Shown here: positions 1,370-7,505 of the stretch, one piece after another
Position numbering within the stretch: the stretch's first letter is position 1
Layout of the letters: each line of letters starts with the position of its first letter
Source of the DNA: Sulfodiicoccus acidiphilus
GTDB lineage: Archaea; Thermoproteota; Thermoprotei_A; Sulfolobales; Sulfolobaceae
DNA length: 64,000 nt
Assembly (NCBI RefSeq): GCF_003967175.1
Contig: NZ_AP018553.1
Span: 1,240,001-1,304,000 of the forward strand
Direction of reading: 5' to 3'
The notes under the pieces: model-generated
Told to the model about the DNA's origin: nothing
The model's database searches: none
Seen by the model: only the letters and a program-made list of their open reading frames with translations
Made by a program: the position numbers and the translations under genes

Positions 1370-3019
1370 ATGGAAGTGAAATACGACGCCGTAGTTATAG
1401 GTGCTGGTCACAACGGGCTGGTGGCAGCGTGTTACTTAGCTAAAGCTGGACTGAAGGTGGCAGTTGTGGAGAGGCGGAGCGTGCCTGGAGGAGCTGCAGT
1501 AACCGAGGAATTATGGCCAGGATACAAGGTTAGTAGGCTCTCCTACTCTTACAGCCTTTTCTCACCTAAGATAGTTGAAGATCTCAAGCTCAAAGAGAGT
1601 GGTCTAGAGGTGGTGGAGTCTGATGTCGAACTATTCGTTCCTTTCGAAGATGGAAGGTACCTGACGATCTGGAGCGATCCACGCAAGACGGTGAAGGAGA
1701 TCTCCAATTTCAGTGTTAAGGACGCCGAAGCTTACTTGAAGTTCGAAGCATACTGGAGAAAAGTGGGTTCCGCCCTAAACGATCTCATGCTCTCTCCTCC
1801 TCCCGACTTAACTCAGCTAGTTACCCTTTCTGACGCGATTTCCGATCCCATAAGGGCCGTCAAACAGTTGGGGAGTCTCCTAGATATGTCGAAGGCAGTG
1901 AGGGCCTTCGCTTCCCACTTCGACAACCCTAGGGAGGCTGTCGAGGTGACTAGGACTCTCATGTTCGCCAGCGTTCATGACTTCCTCTCAGAGTACTTCG
2001 AGACGGAGGAGGTTAAGGCGGCATTCGTTCCTCGAGGCCTGATAGGAACAATGGTAGGTCCGAGGACCCCTGGAAGCGCTTATGTCCTTGCACACCACAT
2101 GATGGGTGAGTCCACTGGGAGAGCAAGCAGCTGGGGTTACCTGAAGGGAGGTATGGGTGGACTGAGTTGGGCATTAACTAAGAGAGCACGGTCACTCGGT
2201 GCTCAAGTGTACCTAGGAGTAGAGGTTGAGGAAATACTAGTCTCTGACGGAAAGGTTAGAGGTGTTAGACTCGGAGATGGTAGGACCTTTGAAGCATCTG
2301 TGGTGCTGTCTAACGCCTCGCCTAAGCACACTATCAAGCTGATCGGGAGGGACAAAGTGGACCAAGACTATGTCAGGGCTGTCGATAGACTCAAGGACCA
2401 AGGATGTGTACTCAAGTTTAACGCGGCCATCTCAGAACTGCCAGACTACAAAGCCTTGCCAGGGAAGGGTGTCGGACCTCAGCACAGGGGAATAACTAGC
2501 ATAGGACCTTCGGAGGACTATGCTGAAAGAGCTTTCGACGACGCTAAGTACGGAAGGTTCTCTAGGGAGCCTGTACTTAGAGTGGTTCACCACTCAGTTC
2601 ACGATCCAACTATGGCCCCTCCAGGGAAACACACGATTTCCATTTTCGCCCTATACTTCCCATATGATTTGAAGGAGGGAGACTGGGACTCCCTCAGAGA
2701 TCAGGCTGCTGACGCTGTTATAGACGCCCTCTCCAACTTCGCCCCCAACTTCAGGGGCTCACTCCTCCAGAGGGATGTCCTAACACCTCTCGACTTGGAG
2801 AGGGAGTTTATGCTCCCCAAAGGGAACATATTTCACGCCGAAATAACGCCTGATCAGATGTTCTCATTTAGACCTGTTATAGGTTGGAGTAGCTACAGGA
2901 CGCCCATAAATGGGTTGTACTTGTGTGGCTCTGCAACTCACCCTGGAGGGGGAGTGACTGGAGCCCCAGGTCACAATGCCGCCTTCACGGTGTTGCGGGA
3001 CTTGGGCCTGACTCGCTGA
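1370..3019 (+). CDS. FAD-dependent oxidoreductase, CrtI/PYROXD2 family
   Basis: Flavoprotein of the phytoene-desaturase superfamily (549 aa). The N-terminus has a dinucleotide-binding fold with GAGHNG (residues 11-16) after a hydrophobic strand and the acidic end of strand 2 (VVERR). The C-terminus has the superfamily signature NGLYLCGSATHPGGG, which closes the FAD site. Length and the GGAAVTEE segment fit the PYROXD2-like branch better than true carotenoid desaturases, and no other carotenoid gene is next to it, so the substrate is open. A TATA-like CTTTTAGATTT lies about 25 bp before the ATG (leaderless). Its last 35 bp overlap the convergent aminotransferase gene. Confidence 0.85.
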   Translation: MEVKYDAVVIGAGHNGLVAACYLAKAGLKVAVVERRSVPGGAAVTEELWPGYKVSRLSYSYSLFSPKIVEDLKLKESGLEVVESDVELFVPFEDGRYLTIWSDPRKTVKEISNFSVKDAEAYLKFEAYWRKVGSALNDLMLSPPPDLTQLVTLSDAISDPIRAVKQLGSLLDMSKAVRAFASHFDNPREAVEVTRTLMFASVHDFLSEYFETEEVKAAFVPRGLIGTMVGPRTPGSAYVLAHHMMGESTGRASSWGYLKGGMGGLSWALTKRARSLGAQVYLGVEVEEILVSDGKVRGVRLGDGRTFEASVVLSNASPKHTIKLIGRDKVDQDYVRAVDRLKDQGCVLKFNAAISELPDYKALPGKGVGPQHRGITSIGPSEDYAERAFDDAKYGRFSREPVLRVVHHSVHDPTMAPPGKHTISIFALYFPYDLKEGDWDSLRDQAADAVIDALSNFAPNFRGSLLQRDVLTPLDLEREFMLPKGNIFHAEITPDQMFSFRPVIGWSSYRTPINGLYLCGSATHPGGGVTGAPGHNAAFTVLRDLGLTR

Positions 3020-5716: not shown

Positions 5717-6946
5717 CTAAGGGTTTAGCTTATAAACATGATTCGTTTTCTCCACACGTAACTCCGTGAGGTTGTCAATGGAGAGTGGGCTTTGTATTTC
5801 GGGAAAATGTCCTTCACTGCCGTTGTCAGCAGTTTCCGATAAGCCATAAAGTTCATATCGTTTGATGTCATTTGACAGTTCTAGCCCTCTCAATGCTATT
5901 AAGTAAGCTGAGGCTGTATGTCTATCAAATCCCTTCTCCCTCATCACCTTATCATGCTCTTCAGAGTTGGTAGTACCCTTAGGGTTAACTAACACAACGT
6001 TAAAGCCTAACCTCAACGATTTAATAACACCATGAATTAGTAACTGCTTTTTAGCAAAACGCGAAATTTTCCTATCACCACTCCTACTCTTAGTAAACTC
6101 CCTCTTCTTCACTAGGAATAAATCCTCAAAAACAACGTAATCAACACCAATCCTTGAGATGAACTCCAGGGTATCACTTAAAGCGTTCGATCTTAAAGCT
6201 TTAGCCTTCTCCTTAGGAAAACCTGGTCTGGTAACATCTGGATACCAAAAAGTCTTAGTAGTAACGACAGTACCGTCCTTATTAACGACAACAACGTTCA
6301 GCCTATCACTGTTTAAATCAAAACCGGCAACCGAACCATAACCTGCAAGTTTTGGTGAAGAGAGATGCTTCAAGTACAACCAAAGTGGTACTTGAAGGTG
6401 GATCATCGGTTTTTCCTTAAAACTAACGACAGCACCGTAACCCTCCTCCTTCCTTTGGGATAACTCCTCCAACTCACGAAGCAAGGGTAAATGCTCCTCA
6501 CCGAAATATGCGTTCCCACGAACCCACTTACCCCAAGGGTCTTTAACCCTAACTTCAACGTGATCCTCCAAAACGTGGAATTTAATGTTCCTATTACCCT
6601 CATCACTTTTATTCCCCCTACTGGCAAACCAGAACTTCCTTACCCTTACATGGATTATCTCACCTTTCTCGTCCTCCCTATCCAGCAGAACGTTAATAAT
6701 TGTCTTAGCTTGCTTTAAAGCTGTTTCAAGGTAAACGTAATTCGGTAAAACGTCGTAAAACTCCTTAGTCAACTCCTCGATGCCCTTCCCGTCAAACAAA
6801 GGTCTAATAGCGCTCTTAACGACTTGCGAGTAAGCTCTAGCGATCCTAACAACCCTCTCCTTTTCGTTAAAAATTGCCTCACCGTTTATAGTTACGAATT
6901 GGAAGTTATCAATTGCTTCCTTAGAAGCGATCAACTTACTCCTCAT
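5717..6946 (-). CDS. TnpB-like (IS605 OrfB-related) RuvC-fold protein without zinc ribbon
   Basis: Protein of about 409 aa from the ATG at 6946 (an in-frame ATG at 6964 would add six residues). It carries a complete-looking RuvC triad: Asp in AGFDLNSDRLNVVVV (about residue 210), Glu in VDYVVFEDLFLV (about 274) and Asp in GFDRHTASAYLIALRG (about 341). The CxxC...CxxC zinc ribbon that TnpB normally has between the last two catalytic residues is absent; the space holds NPKGTTNSEEHDK. The N-terminal half (about 200 aa) is the expected place for RNA/target recognition. The start overlaps the stop of the small broken gene upstream. Base composition is visibly more AT-rich than the flanks. No TnpA and no obvious element end just 3' of it: only 9 bp separate its stop from the previous convergent gene. 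Whether it is an active nuclease or a domesticated derivative is open. Confidence 0.75.
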   Translation of the reverse strand: MRSKLIASKEAIDNFQFVTINGEAIFNEKERVVRIARAYSQVVKSAIRPLFDGKGIEELTKEFYDVLPNYVYLETALKQAKTIINVLLDREDEKGEIIHVRVRKFWFASRGNKSDEGNRNIKFHVLEDHVEVRVKDPWGKWVRGNAYFGEEHLPLLRELEELSQRKEEGYGAVVSFKEKPMIHLQVPLWLYLKHLSSPKLAGYGSVAGFDLNSDRLNVVVVNKDGTVVTTKTFWYPDVTRPGFPKEKAKALRSNALSDTLEFISRIGVDYVVFEDLFLVKKREFTKSRSGDRKISRFAKKQLLIHGVIKSLRLGFNVVLVNPKGTTNSEEHDKVMREKGFDRHTASAYLIALRGLELSNDIKRYELYGLSETADNGSEGHFPEIQSPLSIDNLTELRVEKTNHVYKLNP

Positions 6947-7099
6947 CGTCTGGTAGGATGGCAATCACTATCACCTCCTTGCCGTATAATTTCTCTCCCC
7001 TATCCCTAAGTTTCGAGGGTATTGTTATACCGTCCTTTTATTCCCGTACTTATCTGTACCGTAACTTGAGACGGTAGACCTGAAAACTATTTGCTCCAT
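6936..7099 (-). pseudogene. Small tnpB-associated protein gene (DUF2080/AbrB-like), one-base frameshift
   Basis: From ATG 7099 the minus strand encodes MEQIVFRSTVSSYGTDKYG then NKRTV and stops at TAA. Shifting one base gives ITIPSKLRDRGEKLYGKEVI and then VIAILPDDEE, ending in TAA at 6936-6938, overlapping the TnpB-like start. Joined, the two parts form a compact protein of about 53 residues of the swapped-hairpin sort that often precedes orfB-type genes in archaeal insertion elements; the family name is from memory. One missing base near 7030 explains the break, and it is not in a homopolymer, so real decay is plausible. Confidence 0.55.
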
Positions 7100-7100
7100 A

Positions 7101-7131
7101 AGAATGTTAAAAACATTAAAATTTATAAACT
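7101..7131. promoter_or_regulatory. Shared palindromic TATA box between tnpB locus and candidate RNA
   Basis: TTTATAAA at 7122-7129 is a perfect palindrome, so it reads as a TATA box both ways. It lies about 26 bp from the minus-strand ATG at 7099 and about 26 bp from 7151, where a structured plus-strand segment begins. AATGTTAAAAACATT at 7103-7117 is a further inverted repeat next to it and may be a regulator site. The spacing fits Sulfolobales leaderless promoters. Confidence 0.5.
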
Positions 7132-7150
7132 TTCATGCTAACATTAAATT

Positions 7151-7410
7151 AGAGGGTGCCACAATGAAGTCGATGAGCAATGTGAGGTGGAGGAAGGCAC
7201 CCAATGAAACTCCCTGTGTCCTCGAAGGGAGTGGTTTGACTACCGCTCCCGTAGACGGCACGGGGAGGAAAACAAGGGGAATGAGGACGAGGGTTGATAT
7301 GAAATATCATGAAACCCTAAGAAAGTCCGACCCCTACAAAACCAAACCTCCAGTGAACTCGACCTTAATGGAGGTCTATGGAGACCCTTTCCTAGGTGTG
7401 TGGAGACTGA
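7151..7410 (+). ncRNA. Candidate structured RNA (omega-RNA-like), divergent from the TnpB-like gene
   Basis: No convincing protein is seen, but the segment is packed with perfect inverted repeats. They are GGGTGCC 7154-7160 with GGCACCC 7196-7202; ACTCCCT 7209-7215 with AGGGAGT 7226-7232; and, competing with the latter, GGGAGTGG 7227-7234 with CCGCTCCC 7243-7250. Further on come AGGGTT 7290-7295 with AACCCT 7313-7318, enclosing GATAT/ATATC; CCTCCA 7347-7352 with TGGAGG 7369-7374; and GGTCT/AGACC 7373-7386. A TATA box lies about 26 bp before the first stem. The tail CGGGGAGGAA at 7261-7270 is identical to the tail of the right-end-like hairpin at 50202-50211. A 103-aa frame across it has no recognisable domain. 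RNA ends are not defined by sequence alone. Confidence 0.45.
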
Positions 7411-7505
7411 ACTGAGGTCCTTCTGAGTTGTTCAGTATACGGGAGGAGGAAGATTTATAACCTAGAGGATGAAAAGCGATCTAAAAATACGTGAGCTAGA
7501 TTCGA

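Follow-up and report, generated by a model that had tools for sequence, protein, structure and literature searches.

The window, by which we mean the whole analysed stretch of 64,000 nucleotides, spans positions 1,240,001–1,304,000 of one 2.35-Mb contig of Sulfodiicoccus acidiphilus and contains, at 5820–7334, a mobile element of ~1515 bp with IS607-type ends and without terminal inverted repeats. The protein-coding part, the ends and the promoter of this element are composed of the following features:

5820..7334, no strand: whole mobile element, delimited by the stop of homology in many copies and by the occupied/empty site of copy L115
5820..5821, plus strand: CC crossover dinucleotide (GG on the minus strand) of the gene-side end, from copy comparison and the empty site
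5820..5883, plus strand: counterpart of the left end found in canonical IS607 elements (CCGTTGTCAGCAGTTTCCGATAAGCCATAAAG...), which precedes tnpA in L030 and L032 and is kept in short derivatives (MITEs)
5717..6946, minus strand: gene of a TnpB-like RuvC protein, from the open reading frame (ORF), alignments, fold and dN/dS
6317–6319 (D210), 6125–6127 (E274) and 5924–5926 (D341), minus strand: RuvC triad, numbered from the ATG at 6946
6936..7098, minus strand: small, putatively AbrB/MazE-like partner gene, frameshifted (MEQIVFRSTVSSYGTDKYGNK / ..GITIPSKLRDRGEKLYGKEVIVIAILPDDEE) and overlapping the start of the TnpB-like gene
7122..7129, no strand: palindromic TATA box TTTATAAA, read from the sequence as common to both divergent transcripts

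The minus-strand ORF at 5717–6964 comprises 415 codons, with the homologous part of the TnpB-like gene at 5861–6946 (362 codons). Because the native stop, near 5858–5860, is lost, the ORF continues for ~34 codons beyond the end of the element, to 5717. It has a match to NCBIfam TIGR01765 (E 1.8e-17), a weak one to TIGR01766, the model of the TnpB C-terminus, and none in Pfam; compared pairwise with its five closest copies, the window gene shows a dN/dS of 0.11–0.16. As the initial annotation had proposed, the protein possesses a D-E-D RuvC triad and is devoid of the Cys4 ribbon. D210, E274 and D341 are invariant in alignments of 19 and of 40 sequences, and no ribbon cysteines are found between RuvC-II and RuvC-III in 80 loci. 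The ribbon position is occupied by NPKGTTNSEEHDKVMREKGFDRHTAS in the window protein and, family-wide, by NP(K/R)GTTxSxEHDxxMxxxGLDRHTAS together with shorter variants, with PF07282 (C-terminal zinc ribbon/TNB) giving a weak match in one out of 19 members. Since the zinc ribbon is part of the target-nucleic-acid-binding module, cleavage by the ribbon-less protein may be altered or lost.

The AlphaFold2 model of the window protein (pLDDT 83, pTM 0.80) provides the structural comparison with TnpB and Cas12 that had been suggested. The predicted fold matches Cas12f over its whole length at Z 18–20 (SpCas12f1, 20.1; AsCas12f1, 18.9) and TnpB at Z 14–15 (ISDra2, 15.0; ISFba1, 14.0), the matches covering residues 15–360, with Cas12k also being among the structural neighbours. 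In a tree that also includes zinc-ribbon TnpBs from the same genome, the family is split off from them by one branch (89/86), to be read with the usual caution for long branches. Members are distributed over the Thermoproteota and MAGs labelled Bathyarchaeota, Geoarchaeota, Baldrarchaeota, Nezhaarchaeota and Thermococci, with Sulfolobales such as Metallosphaera as close relatives.

The small partner gene, correctly described before as frameshifted, is intact in L114–L118, L120, L122, L125, L129 and others. Its product scores E 0.038 against PF04014, which is below the cut-off, and its best structural match, a weak one, is to a RIFT-fold (Z 3.4), together hinting at the AbrB/MazE-like fold class. 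Where an AbrB-like partner is present, the TATA palindrome extends over 5–9 of 10 arm positions, mostly 7–9, with ~3.5 expected; in copies without the partner, it is usually not extended past the TATA core. Judged from these sequences, the partner is probably an autoregulatory repressor acting on the palindromic promoter. In L160, L164, L167, L169 and L100, the partner encoded just upstream of the TnpB-like gene resembles a ribbon-helix-helix protein, not an AbrB-like one; the regulator partner seems to be exchangeable between lineages.

Across the shared TATA box lies a palindrome-packed segment, which had been put forward as a structured RNA candidate at 7151–7410. A structured RNA is indeed present, but it ends at 7334, and 7335–7410 is single-copy flank. 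Our own idea of a further TnpB element, the tail of which would lie at 7336–7415, was dropped, as this stretch is not repeated in the genome. The RNA and its adjoining flank are organised as follows, all on the plus strand:

7147..7334: predicted guide-RNA scaffold, from fold and covariance models, its start placed by the spacing to the TATA box
7154–7160/7196–7202: P1, predicted fold
7210–7223/7254–7267: P2, predicted fold, branched
7227–7235/7242–7250: P2b, predicted fold
7194..7267: part matching Rfam RF02814 Sso133 (Sulfolobus sRNA133), 90.2 bits
7276..7334: terminal k-turn hairpin, from fold and relatives
7276–7279/7331–7334: k-turn C stem GGGG/CCCC, from the fold
7280–7282: k-turn bulge AAU, 3 nt
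7283–7284/7329–7330: k-turn GA/GA, tandem G-A pairs
7285–7288/7325–7328: k-turn NC stem GGAC/GUCC, from the fold
7333..7334: CC crossover dinucleotide of the RNA-side end, coinciding with the final two bases of the terminal stem in the RNA
7335..7354: flank at the putative guide position, 5'-UACAAAACCAAACCUCCAGU, deduced from the element end and from where TnpB systems are known to take their guide (PMC8612924)

The stretch 7147–7334 has a folding energy of −75.7 kcal/mol (z −6.7 versus dinucleotide shuffles). Sso133, the Rfam model of which spans 73 nt only, constitutes the core of the window RNA itself. To our knowledge, neither a protein partner nor a function of Sso133 has been reported, and it presumably stems from one of two 2005 studies on S. 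solfataricus (RNomics or L7Ae co-precipitation). Both studies are listed in PMC3432209. A 3-nt bulge, tandem G-A pairs as well as C and NC stems, by which a k-turn is defined (PMC5539422), are found in the window RNA and in many relatives, which follow the same plan with other sequences, e.g., GCCGU-GAU-GA-ACCC...GGGU-GA-ACGGY, and then directly continue into flank. From this motif, L7Ae would probably bind the terminal k-turn. The last base pair of the terminal hairpin includes the last base of the element (7334); with the fold closing at the element end, transcription would therefore run on into flanking DNA.

Two covariance models were built without any Sulfolobales sequence, R1 from six RNAs of other archaea and R2 from four Desulfurococcales-type RNAs. 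In R1, nine pairs are changed on both sides, a value reached in 0 of 500 shuffles, and 94% of cells are paired, compared with at most 48% in slid controls. The window RNA is located by R1 at 7206–7335 (E 1.5e-5) and by R2 at 7205–7335 (E 4e-10), with both matches stopping at the element end, and five of the seven pairs of P1 are changed on both sides in Sulfolobales copies. Of the 68 family loci for which 250 bp or more of upstream sequence is available, 53 have the RNA upstream and on the opposite strand (39 by R1, with 14 added by R2, namely L136–L140, L142–L144, L146–L149, L158 and L163); upon removal of the training loci, the count is 44 out of 59. Neither model matches in 15 of the 68 loci, some of which visibly hold an RNA. 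A same-strand match just downstream of the gene is seen in one locus only (L153). The divergent order recurs within the Sulfolobales and across several archaeal phyla; hence, the segment is conserved with the gene, and the pair is kept well beyond the Sulfolobales.

DNA comparison with relatives reveals a sharp loss of homology at the same two points, 7335/7336 and 5818. The exact limits are derived from copy L115 of a related genus, which interrupts a gene that is intact in six congeners. The filled site (ccagtgA-GG-GGTCGG...TGTCAAC-GG-CAaaaccg) and the empty site of the congener L239 (CCAGTGA-GG-CAAAACCG) have only the GG dinucleotide in common at both junctions, with no other duplication, which places the window element at exactly 5820–7334. 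A GG dinucleotide alone at both junctions is the mark expected of an IS607 serine recombinase (PMC4058570). A five-base target duplication, hinted at by one copy (L114), is absent from other copies and contradicted by the empty site. The earlier statement that no element end is visible 3' of the gene does not hold, given the end at 5820, which lies past the gene's conserved part on the 3' side. Among 30 family genomes, the window copy's own empty site was not found, and its flanks are not common to them.

The genome of S. acidiphilus contains one full copy only, along with decayed copies at 551,481–551,934 (RNA and start of the gene, with their order kept), 2,221,001–2,221,411 (both ends present, interior deleted) and 843,762–843,932. 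The MITEs retain window 7334–7114 plus 5883–5818. Examples are the ~300-bp Sulfolobales MITEs L103, L104, L105 and L121, which are possibly the SMN1-type MITE (320 bp, PMC3718332). RNA-bearing MITEs, which comprise the RNA and the ends and are accompanied by few protein genes or none, are numerous in two genomes, with nine (L214–L222) present in G055 alongside two full copies, and more than 10 (L111, L112, L223–L233) in G054, where the protein is nearly absent, as though the RNA unit were spreading in trans. In L213, a second RNA copy (2821–2956, plus strand) seemingly sits within the gene of a family nuclease, as would result from the insertion of an RNA-bearing element into a full copy. A scan of viral_contigs for relatives and searches of PHROGs and PADLOC returned no match. 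With its frameshifted partner and the lost native stop of the nuclease gene, the window copy is probably decaying, and the case rests on the family.

As noted before, there is no TnpA within the element; i.e., no serine recombinase is encoded between 5820 and 7334. Both ends and the crossover dinucleotide, however, match a canonical ISC1904-like IS607 element of the same genome, L030 (ISC1904 in PMC4058570), the left end of which corresponds to the gene-side end of the window element. In contrast to the window element, L030 encodes TnpA (Resolvase plus helix-turn-helix) and a zinc-ribbon TnpB above the NCBIfam guided_TnpB cut-off, and it carries its terminal hairpin at the 3' end of tnpB. This hairpin (GGGCT-GAGGATTGATATTAAATATTACGAAATCCT-ATGAAGCCC-AAACCCC) closes in CCCC, matching its window counterpart (GGAC-GAGGGTTGATATGAAATATCATGAAACCCT-AAGAAAGTCC-GACCCC). 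Since neither R1 nor R2 matches the canonical L030 and L031, and a permissive Rfam scan gave no Sso133 in canonical TnpB loci, the only links to the canonical omegaRNA are the terminal hairpin and the ends. In the absence of tnpA, the element would most naturally be mobilised in trans by canonical IS607 elements. L030 (G000:C1:1415500-1418800) is a complete canonical element residing in a gene; when the element's flanks are joined at a single CC, the reading frame of this gene (REFYA|TAAIL) becomes continuous again. The same 2.35-Mb genome (G000) yields 44 matches, many of them truncated, to PF07282, the TnpB zinc ribbon. The suspicion of an architecture different from that of known TnpB systems is, thus, only partly confirmed: a divergent, separately promoted RNA is paired with a ribbon-less protein, but the RNA still resides at the omegaRNA-bearing end of canonical IS607; what has changed is on which strand the gene lies and that the RNA has a promoter of its own.

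By position, the RNA would point out of the element end at the place where IS607 TnpB systems have their guide, and the guide of the window copy would be UACAAAACCAAACCUCCAGU. The target flank at 5818–5819 is TG, which makes a TAM-like TGCC in RNA orientation; in the resealed site, TGCC stands directly before the flank expected to be transcribed into the RNA. Among junctions that are not all fully independent, the bases after GG (gene orientation) include C in 20/21 and A in 15/21, and A precedes GG in 12/15. This flank bias may reflect recombinase preference, as canonical IS607 copies show the same bias, or a TAM, or both.

We consider it probable that the locus represents an IS607-type, TnpA-less mobile element encoding a ribbon-less TnpB-like RNA-guided nuclease, with a divergently transcribed guide RNA favouring retention of the element. 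In this reading, one TATA box would fire both ways, with the leftward transcript encoding the small DNA-binding partner and the nuclease, and the rightward transcript, a ~190-nt scaffold RNA (P1, P2 and k-turn hairpin), running through the element end into the flank, of which ~16–20 nt would serve as a guide. The serine recombinase of canonical IS607 elements, with the same ends and in the same genome, would excise the element, and the site would be resealed with the crossover dinucleotide. This empty site would be recognised by the RNP via the TAM-like TGCC followed by the guide match and cut, upon which repair from the sister chromosome would restore the element, in line with the retention model of PMC8612924. 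The partner would probably act at the palindromic promoter, and L7Ae would probably sit on the k-turn.

The structured segment could otherwise be a transposon end, with hairpins for recombinase binding, or an antisense/regulatory sRNA, with the TnpB-like protein having another role. This would accord with MITEs that keep the RNA end with little or no protein nearby, and cis-antisense sRNAs directed against transposases have been described in Sulfolobus (PMC3432209). However, pairing is maintained via RNA-type compensatory changes including G-U, and the RNA retains both a promoter of its own and, at a distance from the element end, a conserved 5' domain. Further, a second subgroup (L117, L118, L122–L124, L127) has different ends with the same protein and Sso133 core; because two end sets (groups A and B) carry the same core and protein, the core tracks the protein and not the ends. 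We therefore regard this explanation as unlikely.

It is quite improbable, in our view, that the system confers RNA-guided DNA binding without cleavage, as a TldR- or Cas12k-like repressor would, despite the lost zinc ribbon/TNB and the structural neighbour Cas12k; nuclease-dead relatives are expected to lose the D-E-D triad, which is invariant in 40 diverse sequences. The initial annotation had also raised a domesticated host system. The one full copy in S. acidiphilus would suit a single-copy system of this kind, but the sharply defined ends, the degraded copies within this genome, the multiple copies and RNA-bearing MITEs elsewhere, the occupied/empty pair, canonical IS607 ends and flanks not common to the 30 family genomes argue for a mobile element and make domestication hardly conceivable.

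The probable reading, a mobile element with a retention-favouring RNA-guided nuclease, can be set against known systems. IS607 TnpBs act as RNA-guided nucleases with a RAGATH-18-derived reRNA, which is located downstream of tnpB and includes a possible kink-turn, and their TAM was found adjoining the left end (PMC11061315). The window family has in common with them the IS607 context, a possible kink-turn RNA, the RuvC D-E-D and the fold (ISFba1 TnpB, Z 14.0), while it is set apart by divergent transcription of the RNA from its own promoter instead of a position downstream of tnpB, by zinc-ribbon loss and by a regulator-like partner in many copies, as well as by the lack of tnpA in the element. 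The ISDra2 TnpB-reRNA system (IS200/IS605; PMC8612924) is likewise built on a compact TnpB fold, with the guide position in end-flanking DNA and the TAM on the other side; however, its reRNA derives from the tnpB 3' end plus the right end, and it has a Y1 transposase and a zinc ribbon. Cas12f (SpCas12f1, AsCas12f1, OsCas12f) provides the best structural matches of the predicted window protein (Z 18–20), but the window system has no CRISPR array, an element-encoded RNA and a protein of ~362 aa without the TNB zinc ribbon. In the literature searched, no description of a divergent TnpB guide RNA, or of TnpB with L7Ae, was found; the 2023 PNAS TnpB/Cas12 survey lies outside it, and an earlier description is possible.

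Overall, this element of heat-loving archaea looks like a rearranged, unrecognised RNA-guided system. More tentatively, and with a probability that we place below even, it could represent an archaeal class of RNA-guided mobile elements that combines one palindromic bidirectional promoter, an element-encoded repressor, a ribbon-less working TnpB and an RNP including the host k-turn protein L7Ae. If the proposed reading is true, the orphan Sulfolobus RNA family Sso133 would gain a partner and a function. A TnpB-type nuclease would be separable from the mRNA that normally carries the guide RNA, allowing for separate regulation and RNA-only MITEs, and the ribbon-less protein of ~362 residues would be among the smallest natural thermophilic Cas12-like effectors.
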